A stretch of 64,000 nt of DNA from the NCBI RefSeq assembly GCF_018613065.1, contig NZ_JAGGQW010000044.1:1-64000 (forward strand), read 5' to 3'. The stretch comes from Bacillus sp. ISL-7. GTDB taxonomy: Bacteria; Bacillota; Bacilli; Bacillales_B; DSM-18226. Every line of letters begins with the position of its first letter. The first letter of the stretch is position 1. The translations under genes and the position numbers were made by a program. The notes below the pieces were generated by a model. The model saw only the letters and a program-made list of their open reading frames with translations. It was not told the DNA's origin and did not search any database. Below, one piece after another: positions 9,077 to 63,042 of the stretch.

Positions 9077-9112
9077 ATATACAATTTTCTATATACAATT
9101 TTCTATATACAA
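9071..9112. repeat. Triple 14-bp tandem repeat
   Basis: TTTTCTATATACAA occurs three times head to tail (9071, 9085, 9099). It starts inside the T-run of the phaP terminator. The following 260 bases up to the thiolase gene hold no gene. Confidence 0.9.
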
Positions 9113-9375
9113 TTTATATCCTACCACTAAAGGACAATCTGTAACGAAAAGGATCTCCTAAAAAGCTTATCTAATGTTTTTCCCCACAACCACAGTATTT
9201 TCCAAATACCAACAACTTTTAGTCTGCCTTTTGCATATTTCGTTTTGGATAAAGACAGGATATCAATTGGAAAGAAAAAATTTCAAGTTACCTATATTCT
9301 TAATTCCTTTTAAAAATGATTTAACAGTTATTTTAAATGATTAAAAATAAATGACTTTTAAAGGAGAGACTTAAC

Positions 9376-10563: not shown

Positions 10564-10950
10564 AATATAATTCAACAATTTGATTTTTTTCAATGCTGGC
10601 CTCCTAATATCCCTATTTCTTTTTTTATATGCCTTAAAGAGTAAACGCTAATATTGTTTAAGTGGCATGACCTTCACACCAGACGCACTGATTTTTAATT
10701 TTCTTGCAGTAACCGATGAGTAGTTTATCTAAGAATATTATAAATAAAAATTCAGATATCAATGACATTACTGTAACGAAGGATGGTCAAATGACTTCCA
10801 TCTCGGTGTAGTATGGAACTATCCTTTGAAATATGAGAATATTAAACTTTATTTGTTTTGAAATTGTAAATAATTAAAGTTAATAAAACTCATTTGAAGT
10901 TGATGTGGCGGGGATTAATTTATTCTAGCATTCAGGAATAAAATCATAGA
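10564..10950. other. Gene-free DNA after the thiolase gene
   Basis: AT-rich, with no supported gene. A 31-codon frame starting at 10716 ends at 10811 but lacks a ribosome binding site. The DNA leads into the tRNA-like fragment. Confidence 0.4.
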
Positions 10951-10959
10951 AGACAAGTT

Positions 10960-11027
10960 CAGTCTTCAAAACTGTTTGAGACCTGCGTGCCAGGTCTGGT
11001 GGGTTCGATTCCCACGCAGTCCCGCCA
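10960..11027 (+). pseudogene. 3' part of a tRNA-Sec-like gene (anticodon TCA)
   Basis: Visible from the anticodon arm onward: CAGT-CTTCAAA-ACTG with TCA at 10966-10968, a long variable arm AGACCTG-CGTGC-CAGGTCT, a T arm GTGGG-TTCGATT-CCCAC, then an 8-base acceptor strand GCAGTCCC, discriminator G and an encoded CCA. The 8-nt acceptor plus long variable arm and UCA anticodon match bacterial selenocysteine tRNA. No matching 5' acceptor strand (GGGACTGC) or D arm lies at the right distance upstream, so only the 3' part is present. Such 3' fragments are typical of attachment sites of elements that integrate into tRNA genes. Confidence 0.6.
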
Positions 11028-11157
11028 ACCTTGATATATAAGGGTTTTTGAGGGTTATATGAGAAGTTAAATAGAGTAGAAAGTTGCTGGCCAACAACTG
11101 AAAACATTACCTTAGGTCACATTTTGGTAACATTGCTTTTTAAATAATTTACATAGG

Positions 11158-11285
11158 TTATTTATTGAGCTGCTCAAACTGCTGGGCAGCTTCTTTTTGC
11201 ATATTTGGTAACACATGAGTATACGTGTCCATCGTGATTCCGATTGTCGAATGACCTAATCGTTCAGAAACGACTTTAGGGATTC
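11158..11285 (-). pseudogene. C-terminal remnant of a tyrosine integrase
   Basis: The minus strand encodes GIPKVVSERLGHSTIGITM, then DTYTHVLPNMQKEAAQQF, and a stop. This is the conserved end of phage/ICE tyrosine integrases: the GHS histidine and the nucleophile tyrosine in DTYTHV. The rest of the gene is missing; the frame is cut where aminotransferase sequence begins on the other strand. It lies 130 bases from the tRNA fragment, the normal place of an integrase beside its attachment site. Confidence 0.8.
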
Positions 11286-11784
11286 CAACAGCTGTCTACG
11301 GTTTCAGTGAAGAACTAGCTCAGCGAATCCGTAAGTACGATAGACATTGAAGGAGCCGATGTCGGCGGAAATTGGAGGTACTCTAGCAGGGAATGCCCTA
11401 TCAATGGCTACCATGCGTGCCACCTTGGAAAATGTGCTTACTGCGGAAGCATATGATCGAAACATTGCTCTAACCAAACGTTTTTGTGATGGTGTGGAGT
11501 CAGTGATTAAAGAACATAACCTCCCGTGTATTGTTAAACATCTTGGTTGCCGTACAGAGTATTGGTTCCGTGACACTCCACCAAAAAACGGTGGGGAAGC
11601 CGCTGCAACATCTGATTATGAACTGGATCGCTACATGCACCTGTATGCTCTAAATCGAGGAATTTTAATGACTCCTTTCCACAACATGGCACTGATTTCT
11701 TCCCAGACAACTGTTGAGGATATCAATCATCATACAAAGGTATTCCGTGAAAGTGTAGAATCACTTCATGGAGCAGGAGTATAA
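11276..11784 (+). pseudogene. Broken class III aminotransferase (C-terminal half)
   Basis: The DNA encodes GIPTAVYGFSEELAQRIRKYD, then DIEGADVGG in a second frame, then GGTLAGNALSMATMRATLENV onward in a third. This reads as the C-terminal half of a PLP-dependent class III aminotransferase (glutamate-1-semialdehyde aminotransferase-like group) carrying two single-base insertions, near 11340 and 11371. The 5' half with the PLP lysine is absent, cut at the integrase remnant. The last 145 codons are open to a normal stop at 11784. It is not functional as it stands. Confidence 0.75.
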
Positions 11785-11901
11785 ATTATCTATGAAAAAA
11801 TGGCAGCCCGCCTACTTCATGTCTGAACTATTTAGCATGATTCGTAAAATAAACATTGAGGTGGAAAGATAAAAATGGGAAGACATTAGATGAGTTGAAA
11901 A

Positions 11902-11935
11902 GAAAGCAGTTATAAAAAGCTGCTTTCTTTTTCCA
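11902..11935 (+). terminator. Terminator after the aminotransferase remnant
   Basis: GAAAGCAG (11902-11909) pairs with CTGCTTTC (11920-11927) and is followed by a T-rich run. It lies between convergent genes, so it may also serve the Lrp gene. Confidence 0.7.
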
Positions 11936-11959
11936 TTTTTCATACCCATTGCACCAGGT

Positions 11960-12418
11960 TTACTTTTTTACTTCCTTAACGTCATGTGGAGTGATGCAGC
12001 GAAATGAGACGGGTGATGATAAAACGATTGATGTATTTACATTTCCGTAAGGAGTTAGCCGGTCAATAAGCCTGCTCAGATGATCCATCCCTGTAACGGC
12101 AGCCTTAAGTAAATAGCTAACTGAGCCGGTTAACCGATGACATTCAACGATGTCAGGGTCAACGATAATCCGCTTCTCAAATTCTGTATAAGATAATACC
12201 TTGAGTTCACTTACCTGAATATAAACGATTACATCCCGTCCAATGGCTTCGAGGGATACCCGGGCACTGAATCCTTCAATAATTTCCCTATCTTGAAGCC
12301 TTTTTAAACGCTCAGTAATGCTTGGACGACTAAGGGATAATTTCTTCGATAATTCACTTAAAGTCATCCGTCCGTCCATTTGAAGAAGTTCAAGCAGACG
12401 AATATCTAATTGGTCCAT
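11960..12418 (-). CDS. Lrp/AsnC-family transcriptional regulator
   Basis: The 152 residues have the standard build: an N-terminal winged helix-turn-helix (LDIRLLELLQMDGRMTLSEL...SRPSITERLKRL, residues 3-45) and a C-terminal RAM/AsnC ligand-binding domain (DVIVYIQV, IVECHRLTGSVSYLLKAAV). Family members bind amino acids and control their metabolism as multimers. It lies divergently from the phenylalanine dehydrogenase operon across a 477-base gap, so it is the likely amino-acid-responsive regulator of that operon (inference). AAAGGAGAATAATTCT precedes the ATG. Confidence 0.88.
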   Translation of the reverse strand: MDQLDIRLLELLQMDGRMTLSELSKKLSLSRPSITERLKRLQDREIIEGFSARVSLEAIGRDVIVYIQVSELKVLSYTEFEKRIIVDPDIVECHRLTGSVSYLLKAAVTGMDHLSRLIDRLTPYGNVNTSIVLSSPVSFRCITPHDVKEVKK

Positions 12419-12895
12419 AGAATTATTCTCCTTTTAAAAATGAAGTTAAATATTGAAAAACTTATGCAAAATATAATGCTTATCACCAAAATTTATGCAT
12501 TTTGATATGTTTTTCAATTATATTATAGCTTAATATTAAATAGAAGCATAATCTTTCTAATTTTTAAACAAATAAAAAGATTATGTATTATCTCAAATCA
12601 GGGTAATTTCAATGAACTCGATCATTGTTTATGGAAGGTGCTGATTAATTTGTCCGCATCAACAGCAGAAGGGTTTGTTGTAACGATATCTACTGCCAAG
12701 CTTCTATTTAATAAAATGTAATCGCTACCAAAGCGGAAAAGCTAGGTACCTAGAGATGGTCATTCGAGAAGAAAGAGTCAAGCAAGTCGTCGAAAATGAA
12801 ACTTCTTCATCATTAACACAGGAAAAGAAGTTGTTTTTTCTCTTTTTTTAAAATGTTTTTCTACTATAATCACAGTGCTAATGGAGGTAATTTAA
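12419..12895. other. Divergent regulatory gap with a decayed coding remnant
   Basis: It holds the promoters of the Lrp gene (leftward) and the dehydrogenase operon (rightward; a TATAAT box lies at 12865-12870, with no good -35 box). Minus-strand DNA around 12625-12705 can be read as DIVTTNPSAVDADKLISTF and a stop, which looks like the tail of a lost gene that I cannot identify. Confidence 0.4.
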
Positions 12896-14035
12896 ATGAA
12901 CGTGTTAGAACACTCTGTACAAAAAACTGAATCAGTTATTGAAAAAATGCATGAGCATGAGCAAATTGTTTTTTGCAATGACCCGACAACAGGGTTGAAA
13001 GCGATTATCGCCATCCATAATACAACACTCGGACCTGCATTGGGGGGCTGCCGTATGCGCCCGTATCGTACAATGGATGAGGCCTTGGAAGATGTACTCC
13101 GTTTATCTAAAGGGATGACATATAAATGCGCTGCTGCCGATGTCGATTTCGGTGGAGGAAAAGCGGTAATCTTCGGTGATCCTGCAACGGATAAAACACC
13201 AGCTATGTTTAGAGCTTTCGGTCAGTTTGTTGATTCTTTAAACGGACGTTTTTACACAGGAACAGATATGGGTACTTCAATGGATGACTTTATCCATGCC
13301 TCAAAAGAGACAAATTGCATCGTAGGAATTCCTGAAGCATACGGAGGCGGCGGTGATTCATCCATTCCGACTGCGCTTGGAGTCATTTATGGTATAAAAG
13401 CAACGAATAAAGTCGTTTTTGGCACAGATGATCTTTCCGGAAAGACCTTCACTATCCAAGGTCTTGGAAAAGTAGGGTTCAAAGTAGCCGAACAATTGCT
13501 TGAATCCGGAGCTGATTTATACGTAAGTGATATTAATGAAGAAGCCATAAAAGCCATTCAAGAACGTGCAAAACAATTAGGAAGCATTGCTCGTGTAGTA
13601 AGCGGAAATGATGTGTATTCTGCAGAAGCAGATGTATTTGTTCCTTGTGCTTTTGGTGGAATTATTAACGATGAAACAATCGAACTGTTAAAAGTAAAAG
13701 CAGTGGCTGGTTCGGCAAATAATCAGCTTCTTACTGAGAAACACGGAGAAGTACTAAAACAAAAAGGAATTTTATATGCTCCAGATTACATTGTAAATGC
13801 TGGCGGTCTAATTCAAGTAGCAGATGAACTATACGGCTACAATAAAGAGCGTGTATTATCGAAAACAAGATCCATTTACACATCGTTATTGGAAGTGTAC
13901 AGACAGGCAGGGTTGGATGATATCACGACCATTAAAGCGGCAAACCGACTATGTGAAAAACGAATAGAAGACCGAAAAAAGCATAATAGCTTTTTCACTC
14001 ATACCAAACGTTCTAAATGGGATATTCGTAAATAA
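12896..14035 (+). CDS. Phenylalanine dehydrogenase (Leu/Phe/Val dehydrogenase family)
   Basis: It catalyses NAD-dependent oxidative deamination of an amino acid to its 2-oxo acid. The 379-residue protein has the catalytic lysines Lys77 (GMTYKCAA) and Lys89 (FGGGKAVI), a Rossmann motif GLGKVG (189-194), and [12 protein letters not shown] at the cofactor/substrate site. [11 protein letters not shown] (150-160) and the length beyond 370 fit the Bacillus/Lysinibacillus phenylalanine dehydrogenases I recall, rather than leucine dehydrogenases (which have GNPSPVTA). It heads an operon with 2-oxoacid dehydrogenase genes, so the likely product, phenylpyruvate, would be passed to the complex. GGAGGTAATTTAA precedes the ATG. 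Confidence 0.85.
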
Positions 14036-14060
14036 TAATTTCTGTTTATGAGGTGATGAC

Positions 14061-15128
14061 ATGTTAACGGAATTTCCAATATTTCAAATTGTCGATGAAA
14101 TCGGCCAATTAATAAATGAGGATTACAAAGATAAAATAACCGAAGATCTTGTTAAAAAATTCTACTATAATATGGTTCGCATTCGTACCTTTGATCGAAA
14201 AGCCATTAGTTTGCAACGTCAAGGAAGACTTGGTACGTATGCTCCGTTTGAGGGTCAGGAAGCTTCTCAAGTTGGAAGTGCACTGGCGCTTGAAAAAGAT
14301 GACTGGGTATTCCCTACCTATCGTGACCATGGTGCCACGTTAACGTTTGGAGCCGGCATGGCCCGTACATATTTATATTGGAATGGGCGTGTGGAGGGAT
14401 GCGTGTCTGAAGAAGGGAAAAAGATTTTCCCACCAGCCGTTCCCATTGCAACACAAATCCCGCATGCAGCAGGGGCTGCTATGGCGGAAAAAAGAAAAGG
14501 TACGAAAAATGCAGCGATTGCCTATTTTGGAGACGGTGCCACTTCAGAGGGCGATTTCCATGAAGGATTGAATTTTGCCAGTGTGTTTAAAGCTCCAGTT
14601 ATCTTCTTTAATCAAAATAACGGCTTTGCGATTTCAGTGCCGATTAAAAAACAAATGAATTCCAAAACGATTGCCCAAAAAGCACTCGCTTATGATATGC
14701 CGGGTGTCCGTGTCGATGGAAACGATATTTTTGCTGTGTATTTCCAAACGATGGAAGGGCTAGACCGTGCCCGTCAAGGACTAGGCCCAACTTTAATTGA
14801 AGCAATGACATGGAGATATGGTGCTCATACAACGGCAGATGACCCGACTAAATATCGCGATCAGTCCCAAAGTGACACAATTCGAGAAAATCGAGATCCT
14901 CTTCTTCGTGTAGAACGCTTTATGAAAGCAAACAACTTCTGGGATGCAGAATGGGTGATGAAGGTCAAAGAAGAAACCGCAACCGAAGTAGAACAAGCAG
15001 TAAAAGATATGGAAAGCTATCCAAAACCAAATATTAATGATTTATTCGATAATGTATTTGAAAAGCCGACTTGGACGATTGCGAAACAAAAAGAAGAATA
15101 TTTTCAATTGATCGGGAGGGAAGCCTGA
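14061..15128 (+). CDS. 2-oxoacid dehydrogenase E1 component, alpha subunit
   Basis: E1alpha/E1beta decarboxylate a 2-oxo acid with thiamine diphosphate and pass the acyl group to the lipoyl arm of E2. This 355-residue subunit has the ThDP motif GDGATSEGDFHEGLNF ending in QNN (157-187), YRDHG (87-91) and the phosphorylation-loop-like RYGAHTTADDPTKYR. It resembles PdhA most, but its operon neighbours (phenylalanine dehydrogenase upstream, amino acid permease downstream) point to aryl or branched 2-oxo acids as substrate (inference). It starts 25 bases after the dehydrogenase, with GAGGTGATGAC before the ATG, and overlaps E1beta by one base. Confidence 0.92.
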   Translation: MLTEFPIFQIVDEIGQLINEDYKDKITEDLVKKFYYNMVRIRTFDRKAISLQRQGRLGTYAPFEGQEASQVGSALALEKDDWVFPTYRDHGATLTFGAGMARTYLYWNGRVEGCVSEEGKKIFPPAVPIATQIPHAAGAAMAEKRKGTKNAAIAYFGDGATSEGDFHEGLNFASVFKAPVIFFNQNNGFAISVPIKKQMNSKTIAQKALAYDMPGVRVDGNDIFAVYFQTMEGLDRARQGLGPTLIEAMTWRYGAHTTADDPTKYRDQSQSDTIRENRDPLLRVERFMKANNFWDAEWVMKVKEETATEVEQAVKDMESYPKPNINDLFDNVFEKPTWTIAKQKEEYFQLIGREA

Positions 15129-43041: not shown

Positions 43042-43989
43042 ATGTTAACTGAAAGTGGGAAATTTCTTCAGATTGACAAAGAAAAACTGGAAAAAATTAA
43101 ATTCTACATACAAAACTCTAAAAGTAAGAACACCCAGAGAAGTTACGCGTCGGACTGGAAGCATTTCACAGAGTGGTGTGAGTTGAATGGGCGAGATCCT
43201 CTTCCGGCATCTGCTGGCACGCTTTGCCTTTATTTATCGGAATTGGCAACGACACATAAATATTCGACCATACGAAGACGAGTTTCTTCTATTAATATGG
43301 CGCATAAATTCAAACATCATCTTCCACCTTCCAAGGAAGTTGAGGTTCAAGCCTTATTGGAAGGAATTAAAAGAGAGATCGGTACTCGGCAAGAACCGAA
43401 AAAGGCGTTGATGCTACAGGTCCTTCCGGCCTTAATCGATAAGATTGACACATCGACTCTTATTGGAATACGAGATAAAACTATTCTTTTATTAGGTTTT
43501 GCCCTGGCAAGCCGACGTTCAGAATTGGTATCTATTAATATAGAAGATTTAGAAATCAACGACCTTGGGATGGACGTAAGAGTTCGCGAAACTAAAACGA
43601 AAAATGATGATTTTATAAAAGGCGTTGTTTATACGTACAATGAATATTGTCCAGTTAAAGCAACTAAAGAATGGATTAAAATAAGTAAAATCAATACAGG
43701 AGCGTTATTTCGTTCCATTGATCGACATGGAAATATCAAGGAACGGTTGAGTGATAAATCCGTAGCACTAATCATAAAGAAATATATCGGGGAACTTGGG
43801 ATGGATGAAAATGATTTTGCAGCACATAGTTTGAGAAGCGGACTGTCGACAAGTGCTGCTATGATGGGCATGACGGAAATTGCGATTATGAAACAAACTG
43901 GACATAAAACTAGGGAAATGGTTGATCGCTACGTTCAGGCAGGTCTACGATATAAAAATAACGCCAGTAGCATTTTGAAAAATTTATAA
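43042..43989 (+). CDS. Tyrosine recombinase (phage integrase family)
   Basis: An intact 315-residue site-specific recombinase. The N-terminal part (about 15-110) is a SAM-like core-binding domain (KNTQRSYASDWKHFTEWCEL). The catalytic domain has Arg158/159 (ALASRRSELVSI), His262-Arg265 (AAHSLRSGLS), His288 (QTGHKTRE) and the nucleophile Tyr297 (MVDRYVQA). AAGGAGGTTCGATT precedes the ATG. A lox-like palindrome lies just upstream, and a decayed second copy of its 3' end is found at 41853, so the gene has been duplicated or has moved. The kind of element it serves is unknown. Confidence 0.92.
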   Translation: MLTESGKFLQIDKEKLEKIKFYIQNSKSKNTQRSYASDWKHFTEWCELNGRDPLPASAGTLCLYLSELATTHKYSTIRRRVSSINMAHKFKHHLPPSKEVEVQALLEGIKREIGTRQEPKKALMLQVLPALIDKIDTSTLIGIRDKTILLLGFALASRRSELVSINIEDLEINDLGMDVRVRETKTKNDDFIKGVVYTYNEYCPVKATKEWIKISKINTGALFRSIDRHGNIKERLSDKSVALIIKKYIGELGMDENDFAAHSLRSGLSTSAAMMGMTEIAIMKQTGHKTREMVDRYVQAGLRYKNNASSILKNL

Positions 43990-44438
43990 TTTACAATTTT
44001 TAGTGTGTTGGAGATTTACATTTAAACGAAATTATCTTTTCTTTTATGTACAACAACCCACATAATTTCGTTACATGCTAATTATTAGAAAATTAATGCA
44101 ATTGGAATTAGTGGAAGGAAAATGGCAAGTTTCATAACCAATCAATTTAGGAAAAAAGAGGTATCTGTTCCCGGGAAAATTGGTAGATTATTCGTTTATG
44201 CGGTGCTAGTAACATTCAATTTGTCACATTCTATAATCTCACCAAAAGCTATTATTAATGGTTTGTTTTAGGACTATGTTTATAAGTTTGTTGGGTCGAT
44301 TAGAAAAACTTATGAGATAAAAGTAATTACTTGGGTTTTTCATGCACGCCTGTTTCTAATTTTTTTAGTTTACACATTTATTTACTGCGAAAGCTTTATC
44401 CCCAGTTCAAATCCGGGTATTGCCTTCGTTTGATAAAT
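43990..44438. other. Gene-poor DNA between recombinase and tRNA-Leu
   Basis: The first 65 bases resemble those after the recombinase remnant at 42160 (TTAGTGTGTTGGAGATTT, AAATTATCTTTTCT, ATGTACAAC), which may mark an element end. A 49-codon frame at 44122-44271 (ATG after GTGGAAGGAAA, hydrophobic middle) could encode a small peptide, but the evidence is weak. Confidence 0.4.
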
Positions 44439-44521
44439 GCTGGTGTGGCGGAATTGGTCAGACACGCACGACTCAAAATCGTGTTCCGTGAGGAGTATCG
44501 GTTCGACCCCGATCACCGGTA
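44439..44521 (+). tRNA. tRNA-Leu (anticodon CAA)
   Basis: Acceptor GCTGGTG pairs with CACCGGT (two G-U pairs), the D arm holds TGGCGGAATTGGTCAGAC, the anticodon arm is CACGA-CTCAAAA-TCGTG with CAA, a variable arm TTCCGTGAGGAG follows, and the T arm is ATCGG-TTCGACC-CCGAT. The long variable arm and CAA anticodon give leucine. CCA is not encoded (TCA follows the discriminator). An integrase gene lies 160 bases downstream. Confidence 0.85.
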
Positions 44522-44679
44522 TCAATTTGTTTACGAAAGAAAAACGAGAATGCTCGTCATATCAACGTTTTAAGTGTTCCTGCTACGGTAGGGACGCTTT
44601 TTTCGTTGCCCTAAAAACCGTCTACGAATAAGTTCAAATCTGACGCACCTGTTAATACGCAGTGGAGGTCGAAGGATCG

Positions 44680-45675
44680 ATGAGCAGGAGAAAAAACGAG
44701 TTAAATCCACGGGAAATACGGATTATGGAAACAAAGGTGAAGACTTACGTAGAGTCGTTTGCCGCTGCATTGGATTTATTTCTAAAAGACTGTGAGGTAC
44801 GTAATTTACGTCCACATACCATTCGTTACTATCAAAATGAAATCCACGCATGATTGAATCAACTAAGGGAGCAAGGGATTAACGTTGAAACGTTGTCGCC
44901 CGTACTTGTTACACAGGAACATATAAAAGAAAATGTAATTGCATATATGCGTCATCAAAAGGGTTTACGAATAGTGACGATTAATACACGATTACGAGCA
45001 TTACGGGCGTTCTTTAACTACTTGCATAAGGCAAAGCACATACCTCAAAATCCATTTGAAGACATCACTTTGTTAAAAGATAGAAAGACAGTAATAGCTA
45101 CATTTTCGAAGGAACAACTCAATAAACTATTTAAACAACCTGATTTAAAGACTTTTACTGGAGTACGTGATTACACGATACTAATGCTGTTACTGGAAAC
45201 TGGTATACGTGCTAGCGAATTGGTAGGCATATCGATTGAGGACATTCTATGGGAAGATGATTTAATCATAATTAGACAATCTAAAAGTTATCGTCAACGA
45301 CAAGTACCTATTACGAAACCTATGAGGCAACAACTGAAGAAGTATATCATTATACGAGGTAGTATTGAGACGAATGCTTTGTTTGTCACAGTCGATAGCA
45401 ATCCGTTGTCTAAACGTGGCCTTCAGAATCAGATAAAGAAGTATGGAAATGAAGCTGGAATTAAAGGAGTTCGATGCAGTCCTCATACATTTCGTCATAC
45501 GTTTGCCAAATTGTCGGTGCAGAACGGTGCGAACATATTTGAGTTGCAAGCAATCTTAGGACATACTTCGTTTGAGATAGTTAAGACATACGTTAACCTT
45601 TTCGGGAATGACGTAAGAGATCGGCATAGGGAATTTTCACCGTTAAGGATCTTGGATAACTTAATCAACCCTTGA
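44680..45675 (+). pseudogene. Tyrosine recombinase/integrase with one in-frame stop
   Basis: Residues 1-58 (SRRKNELNPREIRIMETKVK, LRPHTIRYYQNEIHA) are followed by TGA at 44851-44853; the same frame then continues for 273 codons: the rest of the core-binding domain, ETGIRASELVGISIEDI with the first Arg, PHTFRHTFAKLSVQNG (HxxR) and ILGHTSFEIVKTYVNLF (His, Tyr). Everything else is intact, so a single Trp-to-stop type change is likely. It lies next to a tRNA-Leu, a usual setting for an integrase. The start is ATG at 44680 (GGAGGTCGAAGG upstream). Confidence 0.85.
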
Positions 45676-52852: not shown

Positions 52853-53872
52853 TTATTCGGTGTCTTTTGTTTGGGATAGTTTTTGTTTATCGGTAGTTCC
52901 AGGTGGTTGTTCTAGCCATTTGTTATCAATCAAGATGTTAACTCCATCCTTAGCATACTGAGCGACTTCTAGCGATAAGCGTTCATAATTTAGAAAAAGG
53001 TCTGTTCTTTGACTTGCCGCCGCTCCAGTTGCGTAATTTCCTGAACCAGTCGCACTTAACAATGCCATATGAGACATGGCTAATTTGTCTGAGAATGGCG
53101 GTGTAGTTGAATTTGTTATAGCAACATCTGATGAAATTGGTGGTTGTATATCATTGTCGAGTAGAGCTGCAGAAAAAATCTGCACATGCTTTTTTGAAAT
53201 ATCGTTACCTCTTAACATCCACTTTTGTATATTTTTTCTCGGTGATGTTTGAGCAAAACTAATAGAAAGATGACTACCTATTAGATTGGTTTGAATGTTC
53301 ATATAAAGATGAGATATTTCAACTGTATTTAAAGGGCGTTGCTTACTGAAAAGAGAAAAACCACTTAAATAACTTCTGCTATCTACGTAATCAGTCTTTG
53401 TTGGGTATGCAATATACGGTGCTCTTACAAACAATCCTTTAGAAAGTGCGACATCTGAACTTCTGTCGAATAAATCGGACGTTTCTTTTAGTCCTTCCAT
53501 AAAATAACCCCTTACATCTTTTCTTGCACTCATGGAAACGAGTCCACTATAAGCAAGTAACCCAACCTTTGCCATGTGGTTTATGTAAGTCAGCATAAAT
53601 GAATCAGTATATAGGGGAGGAGCATTTAAATTGACATCTTCGTTAGTAAATCCTGTTGGTAATGGCAAATCTTCTTCTTCGAAAAGATGAGTTAGTTTTT
53701 CTATATGAGAAACTGTAAGGTCATATGCAAACTGTATAATAGGCCTTATATCTGAGTCTTTAACATGTACTAGAAAATATCCAAGAATGCACTTAGCCAT
53801 ACTATCGTTCATATAGCCAGTCCAAGTACAAGCGATTTCTGATGATGTTAGGCTAATACGGTTTTCAGTCAT
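52853..53872 (-). CDS. DUF3231 family protein
   Basis: 339 residues, intact. Two similar helical halves are seen: ISLTSSEIACTWTGYMNDSM through FTNEDVNLNAPPLYTDSFML, and LNTVEISHLYMNIQTNLIGS through TPPFSDKLAMSHMALLSATG. This internal duplication is typical for DUF3231, found mainly in spore-forming Bacilli; function unknown. The C-terminus NKWLEQPP is shared with the other copies in this window. GAAGGAGTTCAGAAT precedes the ATG. It is a single gene pointing into the ORF-free block. Confidence 0.9.
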   Translation of the reverse strand: MTENRISLTSSEIACTWTGYMNDSMAKCILGYFLVHVKDSDIRPIIQFAYDLTVSHIEKLTHLFEEEDLPLPTGFTNEDVNLNAPPLYTDSFMLTYINHMAKVGLLAYSGLVSMSARKDVRGYFMEGLKETSDLFDRSSDVALSKGLFVRAPYIAYPTKTDYVDSRSYLSGFSLFSKQRPLNTVEISHLYMNIQTNLIGSHLSISFAQTSPRKNIQKWMLRGNDISKKHVQIFSAALLDNDIQPPISSDVAITNSTTPPFSDKLAMSHMALLSATGSGNYATGAAASQRTDLFLNYERLSLEVAQYAKDGVNILIDNKWLEQPPGTTDKQKLSQTKDTE

Positions 53873-54245
53873 ATTCTGAACTCCTTCAAAAATATATATT
53901 GGTATAATCTTTCCGAATAAACTTGTTTTTATGTAGCCTAAGATGACCTTGATAGTGTGGTCATCCAGTCATAAAATGCAAATAAGACGACCAATCCGCA
54001 AGTCATCCGTCCATCGAATATTTACCTACTGTAAACTACCGCTTGGAAATTTATTCGTATCTATTAAGTGCATTTTTGAATTGTACATTGTGATTTTCTA
54101 ATTTTGCGTAAGATACAACGCAAAAAGCATTAACTCTTTGACGTAATCAGGTGGTTTAACGCCGAATATAACTTCTAAAAAGATTTTAATTCTTCATCTT
54201 GACCTGCTATCGGCATAAAAGGTAATTAAATATATTCGTTTAGGT
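53873..54245. other. Gene-free DNA upstream of the resolvase region
   Basis: No gene. It must hold the promoter of the leftward DUF3231 gene. Confidence 0.4.
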
Positions 54246-54375
54246 ATACATTTACGAACACTCCGATCACATCCGTCAAACTCGCATTCTACTGTTTGCA
54301 ACATTGTTCGTAAAAGTGTAAAAAATACTTTATGAATATTCGTTTATTAACTATACATTTACGAACACCTTCGAT
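54246..54375 (+). promoter_or_regulatory. Putative res site / operator of the resolvase
   Basis: TATACATTTACGAACAC occurs twice in direct orientation (from 54246 and from 54352), and GTTCGTAAA (54305-54313) lies inverted between them. Spaced repeats just upstream of a serine resolvase gene are the classic res layout. The same TTTACGAAC motif occurs before the resolvase remnant at 24068. Confidence 0.65.
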
Positions 54376-54419: not shown

Positions 54420-55034
54420 ATGGATAATCGTAAATTCGGATACATTCGTGTTAGCAGTCGAGATCAGAACGAGGCACGTCAGCTGCAGTCTATGAAAGAA
54501 GTCGGCATAAGCGACAGGGACATTTTTATCGATAAGCAGAGTGGGAAAGATTTCAAACGGGAACAGTATCAGTCTTTAAAGCATCATTTAAGAGCTGGTG
54601 ATGTATTATACATTCATTCGTTAGACCGATTTGGACGTAACAAGGAAGAAATTTTACATGAATGGACAGACATTACTAAGAACAAGAAAGCGGATATCGT
54701 TGTTTTGGATATGCCTTTACTAGACACTACCAAGTTCCAGGATAGCCTAGGAACGTTTATTTCCGACCTTGTACTACAGATACTTTCGTGGTTAGCTGAA
54801 GACGAAAGAGAACGGATCAGGAAGCGTCAAAGAGAAGGGATTAATGTAGCTCAAAAAGATGGTATACGCTTTGGCCGACCTAAAGCTGAAATAACTGATG
54901 AATTCATTATGGTCTATAATGAGTGGAAAGAAGAGAGTATTACTGCAACAGAAGCAATGAAAAGAGCGGACATGAAGCGAACAACATTTTATAAATTAGT
55001 TAAGGAATACGAGGAGCAACGGGCGAGCCTATAG
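54420..55034 (+). CDS. Serine recombinase (resolvase/invertase)
   Basis: An intact 204-residue small serine recombinase. KFGYIRVSSRDQNEARQLQS carries the catalytic Ser12 and Arg10; GDVLYIHSLDRFGRNKEEIL is the conserved region before helix D; ILSWLAEDERERIRKRQREG is helix E; the C-terminus (ITATEAMKRADMKRTTFYKL) is the DNA-binding helix-turn-helix. It resolves cointegrates or plasmid dimers, or inverts DNA, at sites like the repeats just upstream. GATCGAGAGGAGTATGGAAAT precedes the start. Confidence 0.93.
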   Translation: MDNRKFGYIRVSSRDQNEARQLQSMKEVGISDRDIFIDKQSGKDFKREQYQSLKHHLRAGDVLYIHSLDRFGRNKEEILHEWTDITKNKKADIVVLDMPLLDTTKFQDSLGTFISDLVLQILSWLAEDERERIRKRQREGINVAQKDGIRFGRPKAEITDEFIMVYNEWKEESITATEAMKRADMKRTTFYKLVKEYEEQRASL

Positions 55035-55050: not shown

Positions 55051-55071
55051 TTGTTTATTACGTTCAATACA

Positions 55072-55166
55072 GGGGCTACCCTATCACAAAATCAAGCACA
55101 TATAATAATGCTGTATGCCTCGTGTAACGTAGACATGGAAACGAAAAATCTGAATCTAAAACTCTT
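55072..55166 (+). repeat. Leader repeat, copy A
   Basis: GGGGCTACCCTATCACAAAA, then TATGCCTCGTGTAACGTAGA and ATGGAAACGAAAAATCTGAA. It lies 122 bases before the GMC oxidoreductase start. Copies B, C and D are at 57052, 57826 and 62819. Confidence 0.75.
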
Positions 55167-55287
55167 AATCATGCAAAAGGAACAATAAAAATGTACTGAT
55201 TAACTATAGAACTTGTCCATATCAAATAGAATGTTTTTTGCATTTACTAAATTTATAAGTATATTTCTATTTGAAAGGAATGAAATA

Positions 55288-56997
55288 GTGAAAAAAACAA
55301 TTTTTGATTATATAGTAATTGGTGCCGGAACGGCTGGAGGTGTAATTGCCAAAAAATTAACTGATGACAAAAGGACCTCTGTGCTTGTTCTTGAAGCGGG
55401 AACGAATATCCCTAATCCTAGTCCATCTATTGAGGAAGCAAACGCTTTAGCAAATGATAATAAACTCTCCTTTAACGCTCTTTCTCAAATAGAGGAGAAT
55501 ATAGGTCGTCAGCTTAAATTATGGAGTGGAAGAGTAATTGGTGGAAGTTCACAACATAACTTCATGGGTGCAGTACGAGGAAGTCGTAACCTTTATGATG
55601 AGTGGGCAAGTCTTGTAGGAAATCAATGGAGTTATGATAATATTCGTTCCTTATTTAAACAAAATGAAACCTACACAGGAAATACGCAAAGCCCAAACGA
55701 ACGTGGAAAAGATGGTCCAATTTTCGTTAGGCAACAAGTTATTCCGAATGATGGCCTTATCTATAATTTAGCTAAAGCAACGTCTGATGTGCTAGATATT
55801 CCAATTGTCGAAGATTATAATACAGGAATAAGAGATTGTACATTTTTCAAATTTCAACTTACCCAACAAAAGGTTGATGGAACATTTGTCCGTTCATCTA
55901 CTGCAACAGGATATTTAAATGCAAATATTGTCACACAAGGAAATGAGTTTGACCCTGATGAGTTTGGGATTGGTCGGAGAAAGTTAGTCATTTTAGCAAA
56001 AACGACCGTAAATAAAATACTATTTAAACAAAAGGAAAGGGATACCATTGCTGTTGGGGTTGAATATGTAAGAGACGGCATTACACAAAATTCATATGCT
56101 CGGAAAGGAATCATTGTCTCTGCAGGTAATTTCTCATCCGTTATTTTACAACGTTCAGGAATTGGTAGATCGATCGACTTGACTAAAGCGGGTATATCTA
56201 CATTGGTAGAGAGTCCGAATGTTGGTCATAATTTTCAAACTCAATATTATGCTGGGATGGGTATAGAAGTAGAAACTGGCCGACTCCTCCAAGTCTTGTC
56301 TTCTGACCCAAATGAGCCAATCGCACTAGGTGCTTTTAATAAGGAAAGAGGGCCAGGACGTCGACTTCAATATTTAGGTGTTCCAATTCCCTTGTTTGTA
56401 CCAATTCAAGATGTATTTATAAATAATTGGCAATTTAACCCATCAAAACCAAGCAATATTATGAGTATTGCGATTACCGACCTAAACCCTAATAGTAAAG
56501 GAAAGATAACGGTCGCACATAGTGATCCAGAAGCTTATCCTTCTATTAAGTTTAATCCATTAGAAAATCCTGATGATTTAAATTTTATGGTAGACCAATA
56601 TATTGAGACTTTTAAAATTATAATGAAGGCTCGTGAATTAGATCCTGAAGGTATTTATAAAGTTGTTTACCCTGCCGAAAGTATATTTCATTTAACTAAT
56701 GAGGAAGAAAAAAGAAGCCTGCTTGCTGATTATGTCAAGGCATCTTATACGAATCTAGCTCATTTTGGGGGACAATGTAAAATGGGTAGAAGCATTCAAG
56801 AAGGAGTAGTAGATGGTTTCCTAAATGTTTTTGGTACTAAAAATCTAAAAGTGGCTGATCTTTCTATTGCTCCTGTTTTACCAGATGGTAATCCTTCCTT
56901 GGCTGTTCAGATGATTGGATTAAATGCAGTACGATTTATTCTGGATTTTGAAAATGACCACCACCATGAAAGTAGTAGCGATGAAAGCAGCAGCTAA
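55288..56997 (+). CDS. GMC-family FAD oxidoreductase with His/Ser-rich tail
   Basis: 569 residues. FAD-binding YIVIGAGTAGGVIAKKL (8-24), LVLEAGTN, RVIGGSSQHNFMGAVRGSR (GMC signature region), ARKGIIVSAGNFSSVILQRS (second GMC signature), and the C-terminal AHFGGQCKMGRS and GNPSLAVQMIGLNAVRFIL all match glucose-methanol-choline oxidoreductases, which oxidise alcohols. It ends in an added tail NDHHHESSSDESSS, absent from usual family members; the next gene's product ends in nearly the same tail. The start is GTG at 55288 with GAAAGGAATG upstream; the longer frame from 55213 lacks a site. Substrate unknown. Confidence 0.88.
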   Translation: MKKTIFDYIVIGAGTAGGVIAKKLTDDKRTSVLVLEAGTNIPNPSPSIEEANALANDNKLSFNALSQIEENIGRQLKLWSGRVIGGSSQHNFMGAVRGSRNLYDEWASLVGNQWSYDNIRSLFKQNETYTGNTQSPNERGKDGPIFVRQQVIPNDGLIYNLAKATSDVLDIPIVEDYNTGIRDCTFFKFQLTQQKVDGTFVRSSTATGYLNANIVTQGNEFDPDEFGIGRRKLVILAKTTVNKILFKQKERDTIAVGVEYVRDGITQNSYARKGIIVSAGNFSSVILQRSGIGRSIDLTKAGISTLVESPNVGHNFQTQYYAGMGIEVETGRLLQVLSSDPNEPIALGAFNKERGPGRRLQYLGVPIPLFVPIQDVFINNWQFNPSKPSNIMSIAITDLNPNSKGKITVAHSDPEAYPSIKFNPLENPDDLNFMVDQYIETFKIIMKARELDPEGIYKVVYPAESIFHLTNEEEKRSLLADYVKASYTNLAHFGGQCKMGRSIQEGVVDGFLNVFGTKNLKVADLSIAPVLPDGNPSLAVQMIGLNAVRFILDFENDHHHESSSDESSS

Positions 56998-57012
56998 TAT
57001 TTGAACTACACG

Positions 57013-57048
57013 GAAAGATCGTTTCTACTTTTTAGAGCGGTCTTTCAT
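57013..57048 (+). terminator. Terminator after the GMC gene
   Basis: GATCGTTTCT pairs with AGAGCGGTC, flanked by AAA and TTT. The stem resembles the one after the next gene at 57790. Confidence 0.75.
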
Positions 57049-57051
57049 TTT

Positions 57052-57166
57052 GGACAAGGGTGCCACCCCATCACAAACAAAGCCCCCATGCCATATCGCC
57101 ACTTGCCTCACGTAACGCACACATGGAGACGAAAACTCCGAATCCCGAAAGTTCAGGAACATAAAA
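57052..57166 (+). repeat. Leader repeat, copy B
   Basis: GACAAGGGTGCCACCCCATC, ACAAACAAAGCCC, ATGCCATATCGCCACTTGCC, and ACATGGAGACGAAAACTCCG. It is best matched by copy C and lies about 105 bases before the beta-rich protein gene. Confidence 0.8.
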
Positions 57167-57270
57167 GTAACCCCTATAATTGGACAGACTGACTCCATAA
57201 TTTGTCCCTTTCAATTAGATTACCTTTTGCATTTACTATAAAGATTGAAGACTATTTTTTTCGAAAGGAT

Positions 57271-57771
57271 GTGGTTTTTATAGCGACTCTACGTACGGGA
57301 CCTTTTCTTATTCCTATCTTTACCCATCATCCACCTAGTCCCTGCAATATCGTGATCGTGACGCTAAGTAACCAGACAAATCGGACTCTCACAGCCACAG
57401 TACGAATCGACCAAGTTATTTTTCCACCGGGTCCGGCTGCTCCTCCGTCTCCTATATTGGTGCTGGCTCCACCATCTCCCTTCAGGTTAACTCCGAACAC
57501 AGCTGCGGGGTTTGCTGTACCGGTATTCACTCCTATTCCGATCACAGACACCACTGCCACAGTAGCAGGCGACCCACGTACTTTGATCGTAACTGTTAGC
57601 GGAGATGTTGAAGAATCAGGTGATCTCATTGAAGTCAGCGTCAAAGGCGGTTTCTCATCGGATGGCAGTTCACTGGATGTCTCAGAACCGACAATGTTCT
57701 TCCGTCATGAAGACTTTGTTGTAGTACATGACGATCACCATCATCACCACCATGATGAAAGCAGCAGCTAA
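57271..57771 (+). CDS. Beta-rich protein of unknown function with His6-DESSS tail
   Basis: About 166 residues from the GTG at 57271. The start is uncertain: GAAAGGAT lies right against it, and an ATA at 57280 is in frame at a better distance. The body is strand-rich, Thr/Pro/Val-rich with no charged helix (TLRTGPFLIPIFTHHPPSPC, VTLSNQTNRTLTATVRIDQV, a proline-rich PPGPAAPPSPILVLAPPSP, RTLIVTVSGDVEESGD), like an immunoglobulin-type sandwich. The end is VVVHDDHHHHHHDESSS, shared with the GMC enzyme upstream. The gene is clearly G+C-richer than its neighbours, a sign of separate origin. No family recognised; a spore-surface or extracellular role is only a guess. Confidence 0.7.
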   Translation: MVFIATLRTGPFLIPIFTHHPPSPCNIVIVTLSNQTNRTLTATVRIDQVIFPPGPAAPPSPILVLAPPSPFRLTPNTAAGFAVPVFTPIPITDTTATVAGDPRTLIVTVSGDVEESGDLIEVSVKGGFSSDGSSLDVSEPTMFFRHEDFVVVHDDHHHHHHDESSS

Positions 57772-57789
57772 CATTTGAATAAGCAGGTT

Positions 57790-57824
57790 AGACCGTTTCT
57801 AGCGTACAGAGCGGTCTTTTTTTG
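57790..57824 (+). terminator. Terminator after the beta-rich protein gene
   Basis: GACCG-TTTCT region pairs with AGAG-CGGTC, then seven T. Confidence 0.85.
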
Positions 57825-57825
57825 G

Positions 57826-57930
57826 GGGACAAGGAGGGCTACCCTATCACGAACAAAGCCCGGATGCCATATCGAACTATGCCTAGTGTAACGTACATAT
57901 GCAGGTCAAATCTCGAATCCTTGACGAGAT
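57826..57930 (+). repeat. Leader repeat, copy C
   Basis: GACAAGGAGGGCTACCCTAT, CACGAACAAAGCCC, GATGCCATATCGAACTATGC, GTGTAACGTACATATG, CTCGAATCCTTGACGAG. No rightward gene follows within 500 bases. Confidence 0.8.
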
Positions 57931-58287
57931 GGACAGGAAAGATACCCCTGTTTCCATAAAATCAGTCGGCTGAAATAGCCAAATCGATAAAAAAAATTTT
58001 TTCGGAATCAGAAATCTCGGGGGTGGTGTTAAACAAACGAGGTAGTTTAATCATATAAGTAATACTGTTATCACGCTGATAATATCAGATTAAATGCTAA
58101 AAAAATAGTACACTGGATTGATAATTTAATGTAGATAGAAAAGTAGAAAGTCGATTACTTAACTAAGGAAATCGGCTTTTTTATATCGTTGTCCTCCTCA
58201 CAAAAGGCAGATATTATACGAGCATTGTGAAATAATGTACTTAAACTAATGGAGCAGTTTAGTGGAAGAATGATTTTTTTTAAAATT
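57931..58287. other. Gene-free DNA with a dispersed-repeat left half
   Basis: ATTGTGAAATAATGTACTTA and AACTAATGGAGCAGTTTAG at 58224-58262 form a dispersed-repeat copy. No gene is supported; a short leftward frame at 58155-58358 crosses the terminator and is not called. Confidence 0.45.
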
Positions 58288-58320: not shown

Positions 58321-59325
58321 TTATTTTTCTTTTGCAATTTCTGTTCTATTAGGTGCAAGTGGAGGTTGTTCTAACCATTTATTTTGCACCATAATATTAA
58401 ACCACTTTTTAGTAAGCATAAGATTTTGTAGAATGGTGCTTTCGTAAGTAGATACAAGGTCTGTTCGCATTGCAGATGCTAAACCTACCCCGTGATACGC
58501 TTGTGCAGCTTGGAATAAGAAACCAGTATGATACAACATTAACTTATCGGAAAAAGGAGAGTCTGTTGAAGTTGTAACTTCAGTCTCCCACGACTTAGGA
58601 ACTGGTAAATTATCCGTTTGCATAATTTTTGAAAAATCTTTTATTTGTTGATTAGCTATTTTTTCAGCATACTCGAAAAATTTTCTTCCTTCTTTTGTTT
58701 GTGTGACTTGACTAAATGCAATTGCAAGAGTTTTTGCCATAATACTTTTCTTTAGGTTGAAAGAAATACTTATGATTTCTGTCGCTGCTAACGTTCTACC
58801 CTTTCCGAAAAATCCATCTGTGAAATCTTGGCTGGAAACATATTCAGGGTTTTCAGCAGGATAAAATAAAGGGTCTCTCTGAAAACTTCCTTTTTCAAGC
58901 AATAAATCAATTGTTTGATGATACATCCTTTTCCCATCGTTATCGCACGAGTCGTAAAAAAACCTTAAGTCCTCTCTGACAGAAACAGCAAATGAAGTGG
59001 AGTGTCCTAGCAAACCGTGTAAAGTCATAATGTGTAAATAATTTAAGCAAAAAATATCAGTGAACAATCTCGGTTTACCTTTAAAAAGGTCGGATTCCGT
59101 AAATCCAATGGGAATAGGAAATTTCTCGTTCTCCAAAAAAGCAACCATTTGTTGCTTTTGCTTTTCGAAAGTCTTGATAGCATCCTTAAAAATTGCTTTT
59201 ATTGACTCGTCCTCAATAATAGAAATCATATATCTATTTACAATATCAACAGCTGTTCCATTTACATACTCTCCCCACAAAGTTCCTATTTCGGAAGATG
59301 TGAGTTTTAATTTATCCTTTTCCAT
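58321..59325 (-). CDS. DUF3231 family protein
   Basis: 334 residues, intact, with the same two-half build as the protein at 52853: LTSSEIGTLWGEYVNGTAVD and FTESDLFKGKPRLFTDIFCL in the first half, LAATEIISISFNLKKSIMAK and DSPFSDKLMLYHTGFLFQAA in the second, ending NKWLEQPP. AAGAGGTGGCAGA precedes the ATG. The two intact copies are diverged, so this is an old paralogous group rather than a fresh duplication. Function unknown; the family is restricted largely to endospore formers. Confidence 0.9.
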   Translation of the reverse strand: MEKDKLKLTSSEIGTLWGEYVNGTAVDIVNRYMISIIEDESIKAIFKDAIKTFEKQKQQMVAFLENEKFPIPIGFTESDLFKGKPRLFTDIFCLNYLHIMTLHGLLGHSTSFAVSVREDLRFFYDSCDNDGKRMYHQTIDLLLEKGSFQRDPLFYPAENPEYVSSQDFTDGFFGKGRTLAATEIISISFNLKKSIMAKTLAIAFSQVTQTKEGRKFFEYAEKIANQQIKDFSKIMQTDNLPVPKSWETEVTTSTDSPFSDKLMLYHTGFLFQAAQAYHGVGLASAMRTDLVSTYESTILQNLMLTKKWFNIMVQNKWLEQPPLAPNRTEIAKEK

Positions 59326-60930: not shown

Positions 60931-61088
60931 TATAAATATGAGATTGTGAAGGATTGTACTTAAACTACTATGAAAATTTACTTCTGTAACATCGGAAAAA
61001 AGGCAATACTTAAGAAGAAGCAGCTCATTCATTTTTTAAAAAAGGAAGAGAGCTACAGTTTATTGATCTATTGTTAAAATGAGTTGGA

Positions 61089-62312
61089 TTAGGATGCTTC
61101 TGGTTCTTTAATTGATACGATATAACCAAAACTTTCAAGTCTTCTTAAGGAATGTCGAACAATAGATTGCTGTCTTTGTTTATCGAAGTAGTCTTCGCCT
61201 AAATCTACATACATTTCTTTACGGGTTAATAGATAATAAGCGATTCTTAACATCGCATGGGCTACTACTATTCCAGCTTTTTTCTTCCCTTTTCGTGATG
61301 CTGTAAGCCTATACAGTGCTCCGAGATAGTTTTTTGATGCTTTAACTGAATGAGCTGCTTCTATTAATGAAGATTTTAAATATTTATTTCCTTTTTTGGT
61401 TTTAGAAGATTTCCTTTTTCCGGCACTTTCGTTATGACCAGGAACTAGGCCCGCCCACGAACACATATGAGCTGCAGATGGAAATTGTTCTTTAATATTG
61501 TTTCCTAATTCAGCCATCATTTGTTCCGCCATTCGTGTAGCGATACCAGGGATGGAATCAAGTCGTTCTACATCTTCTTGATAAGAACTTAATCTTTGGG
61601 CTACTTCTTGATCCAACATTTCAATTTGCTCGGTAAGGAAATCAATGTGTTTTAAAATGGTTTTTAACATCAGACGTTGATGAGGATTAATATAACCATT
61701 AAGAGCCAGCTCAAGTTCTTCTTTCTTCTTTTTCAGTGTACGTCTAGCTAAGTTTGCTAGTTTCTCAGGATCATCTTCACCATCTGCGATTGAATTAAGC
61801 ATATCTTTTGCTGAAACCCCCATAATGTCAGAAACAACCGATCCTAGTTTGATGTTAGCACCTTCCAACACCTTTTGGATTCGATTGATTTGTCTTGCCC
61901 GTTCTTCAATAATACTCCGACGATAACGCACAAGTTCTCGTAACTCTCGTTGGTTTCGGTTTGGAATATAACTGGGTTTTAGTAGTCCGTGCCGAAGAAG
62001 CTGAGCAATCCACTCTGCATCCTTAACGTCGGTCTTGCGACCAGGGAGTGCCTTCATATGCTGGGCATTCACTACTAAAAACTCAATTCCTTTAGCTTCA
62101 AGTAGGTTAACGATGGGTTTCCAATATACACTTGTGCTTTCCATAGCCACATGGGTACATTTATGTTCCTTAATCCAATCAATTAATTGTAGTAAAAATA
62201 CTGTTTTAGTCGAAAAAGTTTTAATCTCCTTTCCTTCAGTTGTCATAATACATGCAGTAATATTGTCCTTATGGACATCCATTCCACATGCTCTTTCAAT
62301 GATTACATCCAT
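61089..62312 (-). CDS. IS110-family transposase (second element)
   Basis: 407 residues from ATG 62312 (GGAAAGGAAAATTTCA upstream; a longer frame from 62360 lacks a site). RuvC-like DEDD residues are in GMDVHKDNITA (Asp), VAMESTSVYWKP (Glu) and RKTDVKDAEWIAQLLRHGLL (two Asp). The Tnp_20 part has DSIPGIATRMAEQMMAELG and CSWAGLVPGHNESAGKRKSS with the likely catalytic serine. The protein differs clearly from the other IS110 transposase at 3769, so it is another subgroup (long noncoding end upstream rather than downstream). Intact and possibly active. Confidence 0.93.
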   Translation of the reverse strand: MDVIIERACGMDVHKDNITACIMTTEGKEIKTFSTKTVFLLQLIDWIKEHKCTHVAMESTSVYWKPIVNLLEAKGIEFLVVNAQHMKALPGRKTDVKDAEWIAQLLRHGLLKPSYIPNRNQRELRELVRYRRSIIEERARQINRIQKVLEGANIKLGSVVSDIMGVSAKDMLNSIADGEDDPEKLANLARRTLKKKKEELELALNGYINPHQRLMLKTILKHIDFLTEQIEMLDQEVAQRLSSYQEDVERLDSIPGIATRMAEQMMAELGNNIKEQFPSAAHMCSWAGLVPGHNESAGKRKSSKTKKGNKYLKSSLIEAAHSVKASKNYLGALYRLTASRKGKKKAGIVVAHAMLRIAYYLLTRKEMYVDLGEDYFDKQRQQSIVRHSLRRLESFGYIVSIKEPEAS

Positions 62313-62515
62313 TGAAATTTTCCTTTCCACGGCTACTATTTTTAGAGGCTGGTGCAACAACCAGAATAGGATTAATCTACTATGAGTGCTTCCCGTAAGG
62401 GAGCGACAGTCTGTGGTGCACCGTGGTCGTTGGAGTCAGACTAACGGATGGGCTCTAACGCACCATAGTTCATCGACCTTCCTCTCCCAGCCGTAGAATC
62501 AGTATTGACGGTTCT
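62313..62515 (-). ncRNA. Candidate bridge RNA region of the second IS110
   Basis: The 200 bases before the transposase are gene-free, richer in G+C and hold stems such as CTCCC-TTAC-GGGAG and the twice-occurring GGTGC blocks (GTGCACCGTGGT, ATGGTGCGTTAGAGCCC on the minus strand). In the IS110 subgroup the guide (bridge) RNA is encoded on this side. The element's outer ends are not fixed. Confidence 0.45.
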
Positions 62516-62818
62516 AATATATTTTCATTCTCTGTGGTGTAGCGATGATTTTTCCGCTGCATGGATGGCTATCGGGTGCTTTACTTTAACTAACGATGAT
62601 CGTCAAAGACGGTCATTTTTTGCTAGTTTACTCTTATCAAAAGCTAAGAAAAGCTATGACACGAATCGGGAAACGTGTTTTATCCACCAGTGAGTGATTG
62701 ACTCATATTTATGCCATGAGGCAGGTAAGACAATAGTACATAGACAAAACGTTAGATTACGTAGTCAAACGTATGATAACCGCAATAGGAACGTATATAG
62801 AATGAATCAATAGCGTAA
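62516..62818. other. Gene-free DNA with dispersed-repeat copy
   Basis: ATCGGGTGCTTTACTTTAAC (62571-62590) then a hairpin GATCGTC-AAA-GACGGTC and TTTTTT, a dispersed-repeat copy with its terminator stem. The rest shows no supported gene. Confidence 0.5.
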
Positions 62819-62915
62819 TGGGGGTACCGGATCACAAATGAGAAGGGTGTGCAATATTAACATGTGCCTGGTTATAGACGAACATGGACGTGGAATCTCG
62901 AACGTTGACGAGTTT
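62819..62915 (+). repeat. Leader repeat, copy D (diverged)
   Basis: GGGGGTACCGGATCACAAAT, then ATGTGCCTGGTTATAGACGA, ACATGGACG and ATCTCGAACGTTGACGAG. The layout matches copies A-C, with lower identity. It lies about 130 bases before the GIY-YIG gene. Confidence 0.6.
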
Positions 62916-63042
62916 CAAACTGCTTAATTCAATCGATTCAATTGAGGGTAGCGTTATAGTAAAGGAAGGAATTTTACTTAAAGATATAGAAAATAAAATA
63001 AGTATGTATTTATATTTATGACTGTTCAAGAGGTGAACGAGG

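Follow-up and report, generated by a model that had tools for sequence, protein, structure and literature searches.

To our knowledge, no simple sequence code has been described for how most spore-coat proteins find their layer. The BclA-type exosporium leader is a short shared N-terminal signal that places proteins on the spore surface, and the LPXTG and PEP-CTERM tails are C-terminal, occur on unrelated surface proteins and need a membrane helix with a basic end together with a transpeptidase or exosortase motif. Here we consider a short C-terminal tail at the end of two adjacent genes of Bacillus sp. ISL-7, encoding a GMC-family oxidoreductase and a small beta-rich protein (beta protein), which lie in a stretch of 64,000 nt (contig NZ_JAGGQW010000044.1, positions 1-64,000, forward strand) that was analysed as a whole and is called the window. 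The tail would, like the BclA-type leader, be a short shared signal, but it is C-terminal and of different sequence. With the LPXTG and PEP-CTERM tails it has in common that one C-terminal signal would sit on unrelated proteins, but inspection by eye of the tails as printed revealed no hydrophobic stretch and no sorting motif of either type.

The outer coat of B. subtilis offers another comparison. According to one account (PMC7821199), CotH, a protein distantly related to the Fam20C kinases, polyphosphorylates CotB in its serine-rich C-terminal part. As far as described there, the CotB and CotG regions resemble the tails in being serine-rich, predicted to be disordered and, in CotB, C-terminal, but they are long and rich in Ser, Lys and Arg, whereas the tails are short, acidic (composition Asp/Glu/Ser/His), often His-rich and present on several unrelated proteins.

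We put at about 0.58 the probability that the tail is a C-terminal spore-coat tag on unrelated proteins and has moved between some of their genes in the form of a 3' DNA block. Such a tag would be a run of Asp/Glu and Ser residues (DESS, ESSS) that in many cases is accompanied by a His cluster; it would probably be disordered, without a hydrophobic anchor, and would target proteins to the outer layers of the endospore. Searches of open-licence papers brought up no description of such a C-terminal acidic-serine/His sorting tag on spore-coat enzymes, nor of the repeat (E) that flanks the two genes. If this is true, the presence of the tail on CotA laccase and on unrelated proteins would amount to a layer-targeting sequence code, spore-surface proteins could be predicted from genome sequence, and a compact display tag would be at hand. 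The evidence at the DNA level would further point to a route to chimeric genes, in which the body is exchanged and promoter, tag and terminator are retained.

The segment of the window that carries this argument is composed as follows:

54420..55034, + strand: gene for a small serine recombinase (resolvase), which heads the E-flanked genes (Pfam PF00239)
55071..55174, + strand: first copy of repeat E, separating the recombinase gene from the GMC gene and limited to the left ~100 bp
55177..55279, + strand: beta-type upstream region TTGTCC...GCATTTACT...GAAAGGA ahead of the GMC gene (found with the upstream hidden Markov model, HMM)
55288..56997, + strand: GMC-family oxidoreductase gene with C-terminal tail DHHHESSSDESSS (Pfam PF00732, PF05199)
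56956..56997, + strand: 3' end of the GMC ORF, comprising tail codons and stop; its final 18 bases match the end of the next gene exactly
56998..57055, + strand: non-coding DNA after the GMC stop codon, shared with the beta gene and including the terminator hairpin AGATCG...CGGTCT (HMM E 2.1e-8)
57056..57159, + strand: second copy of repeat E, separating the GMC gene from the beta gene and likewise limited to the left ~100 bp
57163..57287, + strand: upstream region of the beta gene (HMM E 3.8e-31, this copy being included in the model)
57271..57771, + strand: gene of the beta-rich protein, 'VFIATLRTGPFLIP' family, tail HHHHHHDESSS, with an inferred GTG start
57772..57832, + strand: non-coding DNA after the beta stop codon, terminator included, which is the reference copy of the 3' block
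57833..58034, + strand: repeat E copy 3, 3' of the beta gene, full-length form of ~200 bp

By direct reading, the open reading frame (ORF) of the GMC gene ends in ..FENDHHHESSSDESSS and the following beta ORF in ..HDDHHHHHHDESSS; the latter most likely starts at GTG 57271 (ribosome-binding site GAAAGGA) and has its stop at 57769-57771. An earlier note on this DNA had claimed that the last 18 bases of the two genes are identical, which is correct (56980-56997 and 57754-57771), and that similarity continues a little beyond the stop, which was an understatement: it reaches the terminator and repeat E, and also covers the ~100 bp upstream of the genes. In local alignments judged against 500 dinucleotide shuffles, the tail and downstream DNA up to E scored 71 (best shuffle 25), the non-coding 3' part alone 38 (best shuffle 24), the ~110 bp upstream through the ribosome-binding site 51 (best shuffle 34), and the repeat E comparisons 49 and 69 (best shuffles 24 and 28), in each case with 0 of 500 shuffles reaching the score. 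The gene bodies, which had been said to differ strongly, indeed have no detectable homology in this test (score 18, reached in 488 of 500 shuffles) and differ in G+C content (36.3% for the GMC body and 48.9% for the beta body, with 36.5% for the window). The order is the same in both genes: E, upstream region up to the ribosome-binding site, unrelated body, tail, stop, terminator, E. By eye, the GMC tail looks like the beta tail in which the ESSS block has been doubled, attached to a GMC-like DFEND sequence. Gene conversion confined to the last bases was considered and is ruled out by the homology spanning both flanks.

The direction of the relationship follows from models built on beta genes. 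An HMM of 10 beta-gene upstream regions, with no GMC gene among them, matched two places in the window, namely ahead of the beta gene and at 55177-55279 before the GMC gene (E 1.5e-15). It gave no match in 12 other GMC loci (11 distinct genes, L155 being the same as L001), ten of which came from a search of Neobacillus genomes and two of which were L001 and L002. An HMM of beta-gene 3' ends matched the 3' end of the window GMC gene as well (E 2e-16). With a beta-type match on either side, the GMC gene is, by homology, located in a beta-gene frame. The two frames are just ~73-79% alike, so that the event by which they came to be shared is probably not recent.

The families to which the two proteins belong differ in how commonly they carry the tail. 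The GMC protein has both GMC_oxred_N and GMC_oxred_C (E 5.9e-26 and 3.7e-30) and is a GMC oxidoreductase by definition. The beta protein belongs to no Pfam or NCBIfam family; its description as beta-rich holds weakly, resting on an all-beta AlphaFold2 model of low confidence (mean predicted local distance difference test score 60.5), with which a fold search found no PDB match at E≤0.001. The earlier note had proposed that the shared tail would be a chance gene-conversion event if homologues of both proteins normally lacked it and no other genome had paired tails. The data speak against this: of 15 beta homologues, 11 have a [D/E/N/K]SS motif at the end and 11 have at least three His (by-eye reading), and a second tailed pair is present in genome G052, where one of the two GMC proteins ends in DSDESSDHHQHHHYEESSDESSN and its upstream neighbour, an NHL-repeat protein, in EESSDHHHHHPHHKESHNESSD. 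The tail is thus normal for the beta family but not for GMC proteins, of which 2 of the 120 listed homologues have it, the window protein included. Beta genes of G026, G009 and G046 have E on both sides and no adjoining GMC gene; the GMC genes of G009 and G046 are elsewhere in the genome and end in ..RFIRDQQ without tail. A close GMC gene is present in 9 of 61 Neobacillus genomes.

The distribution of the 3' block was examined in these 61 genomes with a model (R3) of tail codons plus terminator, made from 12 sequences of beta, GMC and NHL genes. There were 27 hits at E≤0.1 in 19 genomes. The ORFs that end at these hits encode beta proteins, NHL propellers, GMC proteins, GDSL esterases (L173, L174, L188), a YVTN propeller (L175) and CotA-type multicopper oxidases (L177, L189), and Pfam supports at least one member of every family except beta. 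Seventeen hits had E≤1e-3, nine of them being training sequences; 14 end an ORF with an ESS/DESS-type tail and one an ORF with a variant (NESNS), while of the other two, L192 is a damaged beta gene and L176 is beta-like, having His and no DESS. New hits were the tailed L170, L173, L174, L175, L177 and L188, together with L176 and L192. Among the 10 hits with E>0.01, a tailed ORF was found at one (L189). Since R3 contains tail codons and thereby favours tailed genes, an HMM of the non-coding DNA after the stop served as control. It was constructed from seven beta genes only and used on 238 sequences, which are a non-random set. Matches were obtained with the GMC genes of the window (2.1e-8) and G052 (0.01), with NHL genes (L170 1.5e-8, L034 2e-5, L023 2e-4) and with GDSL genes (L173 4e-5, L174 3e-3). 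By these matches, the tail peptide recurs on CotA, GMC, GDSL, NHL, YVTN and beta families, and for beta, GMC, NHL and GDSL, where homology continues into the terminator, we infer that the 3' end has travelled as DNA. The idea of the tail as a module on unrelated proteins, put forward in the earlier note, is in this way partly supported: the tail does recur across families, but in the window the entire gene frame is common, beyond the tail.

A repeated form of the motif was found with a DNA pattern for DESSDESS in 13 genomes that had been picked for earlier hits, which gave 10 matches as compared to 3 in a reversed control. Nine of the 10 lie at most 36 residues from the end of a long ORF, encoding CotA (2), presumably CotB-like (2), GDSL (2), YVTN (1), GMC (1) and one unidentified protein. 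The presumed CotB-like proteins (L193, L200) have Pfam DUF6897, below the cut-off for L193 and above it for L200; a plasmid search yielded one relative, annotated as hypothetical protein.

The link to the spore is provided by CotA, which is an outer-coat enzyme of the B. subtilis spore (PMC4822991). The tailed protein of L177, which is identical to a Neobacillus niacini protein, is a clear homologue of B. subtilis CotA (PDB 1gsk; E 4.9e-152, residues 1-465 of 509), yet its DESS tail falls beyond the region aligned to 1gsk. Of 3938 passing CotA homologues, 120 were listed, and 100 of these could be anchored at the conserved copper-site end. Within this group, 24 carry [DE][ES]S[SD] in the final 12 residues, 36 carry [D/E/N]-SS in the final 25, and 21 have at least four His after the anchor. 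A serine-rich stretch on a spore-coat protein, as in CotB and CotG, is present in CotA homologues with ESSS or DESSD ends, for example P0226 of Neobacillus sp. FSL H8-0543 (..DESSSDHGHHHHHDESSSD), P0194 of N. cucumis (..HHHDESSS) and P0184 of Peribacillus asahii (..QDESSSNHGHHHHS), and DESSS tails extend to Peribacillus and Robertmurraya. For comparison, [DE][ES]S[SD] ends occur in 9 of 667 distinct C-termini of ORFs from the loci collected in this analysis, 7 of the 9 being beta or GMC; this is an unequal control, as the ORFs (at least 90 aa) surely include some spurious ones and the loci include the beta and GMC loci.

If the tail is a spore-coat tag, the following course of events can be envisaged for the window. 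In a tandem copy of the beta gene with E repeats on either side, everything from the start codon up to the tail would have been exchanged for a GMC body, as suggested by the shared frame, and the GMC gene would thereby have acquired a beta-type promoter, tail and terminator. The homology needed for the tandem duplication behind both frames plausibly came from repeat E. The common upstream region would give expression in the mother cell at the time of sporulation, and the tail would hold its carrier in the coat; contacts with the matrix would most likely be electrostatic or made through phospho-serine, and metal bridges of the His cluster possibly contribute. Docking of the GMC and beta proteins to each other, as put forward in the earlier note, would be a speculative further role. 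A CotH-type kinase may phosphorylate the tail serines; CotH (PF08757) is encoded in 58 of the 61 Neobacillus genomes, a set outside which the window's own genome falls. The site of Fam20C is S-x-E, which S-D-E within DESSDESS would fit. A more far-reaching version is that a ~100-bp block (tail codons, stop, terminator and sometimes a sporulation promoter) moves between genes of Neobacillus and relatives as a plug-in spore-display tag, which would turn new enzymes or structural proteins into outer-coat proteins at once by means of one common coat receptor or kinase recognizing the tail. This we regard as tentative and somewhat doubtful.

The beta-type upstream motif (TTGTCCCTTTCAA..GCATTTACTATA) also occurs elsewhere, at L024 766-864 and 1479-1584, in L032, and at L026 1459-1566, L031 1489-1568 and L027 1494-1572. 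Small ORFs that follow it start with MWSYLN (L024, L032), MGCGCGG (L026) or MAPLLSGQF (L031), and the motif may possibly represent a class of sporulation promoters.

Several observations weigh against the tail as a transferred spore-coat tag. The non-coding 3' HMM also matches, at E<0.01, downstream of a 443-aa ORF without tail (L025) and of a beta-like ORF that ends in HHHHNHRRK without DESS (L012), and ten weaker hits (E 0.03-4) have a tailed ORF upstream in only two cases. When 397 genomes of the order were searched for (DESS)2, there were 32 matches, spread over 28 genomes, and 5 in the reversed control; among the 29 matches that were read, exact C-terminal DESSDESS was found in one, the GMC protein of G001, and one further match, in G348, is a C-terminal DESC repeat. 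With so few C-terminal cases, the repeated form of DESS is, on present genomes, a lineage-restricted one. Most of the anchored CotA homologues do not have the tail, and just 6 of the 24 tailed ones have at least three His in the last 40 residues, which slightly lowers our confidence in the spore-tag interpretation. At least three His plus [DE]SS were found in only 2 of the 120 listed GMC homologues (of 493 passing), namely the window protein and P0017. CotB of B. subtilis, a known substrate of CotH, has a region that is Ser/Lys/Arg-rich and not acidic (PMC7821199). Acidic-serine and His runs are, moreover, of low complexity and can originate independently.

The latter consideration leads to the possibility that acidic-serine/His ends tend to evolve in the outer-coat proteins of these bacteria because they serve charge, hydration or metal binding, with no DNA being exchanged. 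The 3' non-coding DNA of the CotA genes is not matched by the beta-derived non-coding HMM among the 238 sequences, so that the CotA tail may be convergent; the length and order of the tails also vary widely, and other acidic tails are present on many GMC and CotA homologues. However, homology of an untranslated terminator, as seen in beta, GMC, NHL and GDSL genes, cannot stem from convergence of peptides, and for beta, GMC and NHL the explanation is already contradicted. As a general account it is the least probable of those considered. Slightly less improbable, though still unlikely, is pure duplication, in which one body of a tandem beta unit was replaced by GMC and the tail is a functionless leftover on the latter. 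Tandem beta paralogues indeed seem to exist (the tags of P0002 and P0004, FB550_101785 and FB550_101784, are consecutive), four matches in G026 place beta genes at three sites, and the E repeats that flank the units offer homology for recombination. Duplication leaves unexplained, however, the tails on NHL, GDSL, YVTN and CotA proteins at other loci and the tailed pair of G052, and the GMC homologue P0017, at 86% identity, has kept its His/ESSD tail.

An equally unlikely explanation concerns the repeats themselves. Integron gene cassettes and Xer dif modules, the latter reported from Acinetobacter (PMC12907356), consist of single genes with a direct repeat on either side, and the repeats of an array share one orientation. 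The E repeats appear to resemble this layout, some of them lying beside a resolvase, and they could be sites of this serine resolvase, with GMC and beta genes being excisable or shuffled in an integron-like manner and the tail being the 3' margin of a cassette. Resolvases 85-89% identical to that of the window adjoin E arrays in G001, G009 and G026, and E begins 37, 36 and 39 bp past the resolvase stop in the window, G001 and G026, respectively. All 22 adjacent E pairs (E-value up to 1e-4) at 12 multi-copy loci are co-oriented, and for four weaker hits the orientation agrees in three but not in L079:3659; by eye, left and right flanks of E combine freely between genomes. On the other hand, the resolvase has res-like repeats of its own (TATACATTTACGAACAC and its inverse) upstream of its gene at 54236-54369, which are unlike E, and E is absent from seven plasmid loci with related resolvases and was not found beside the GMC genes of the 12 other GMC loci. 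Unlike attC sites of integrons, E has no conserved foldable structure: RNAalifold gave 0 pairs for 15 copies of ~105 nt and, for 13 full copies, 4 pairs that lack compensatory changes. Recombination at E is putative, and plain RecA recombination between copies would give the same patterns.

Repeat E is a dispersed element with internal copies of ~105 bp and a full length of ~200 bp, which is present in 10 of the 61 Neobacillus genomes at E≤0.01, with only weak matches in two of the ten (G051 and G056). In the window, a fourth copy at 62818-62916 is present besides those at 55071-55174, 57056-57159 and 57833-58034. No plasmid or phage copies of E were found at E 1e-5. E or the terminator block as a known RNA was rejected: at the gathering threshold, Rfam gave one tRNA only in the window, and six hits (introns, riboswitch, tRNA) in L038, L039, L040 and L079, none overlapping E.

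The segment of recombinase, GMC and beta genes with their E copies is bracketed by two DUF3231 genes on the minus strand (52853-53872 and 58321-59325). A second, palindrome-centred repeat (B; GTGAA..ACTTAAACTAACGGGTGCTTTAGTTGAACAAG) occurs in the window at 34881, 35762, 47152, 58224, 59496 and 60940, where copies flank a DUF3231 gene, and in L126 at 2891-14992. It has from 5 to at least 150 matches per genome in 10 genomes, and the matches listed are co-oriented over long stretches, as in G059 C2 (~3.07-3.27 Mb, + strand; ~3.91-4.02 Mb, - strand). Repeat B follows some resolvases, but a role as part of the resolvase system was rejected, since with such numbers of matches nearness is unspecific. 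At 60940-62360, a B copy seemingly ends after ACTTAAACTA near a transposase ORF (61089-62360), which we take to be IS110-like, as if the element had been inserted into the repeat. Finally, two ORFs at 43042-45675 that are presumably tyrosine recombinases adjoin a tRNA gene (44439-44521), an arrangement that points to an integrated island downstream.

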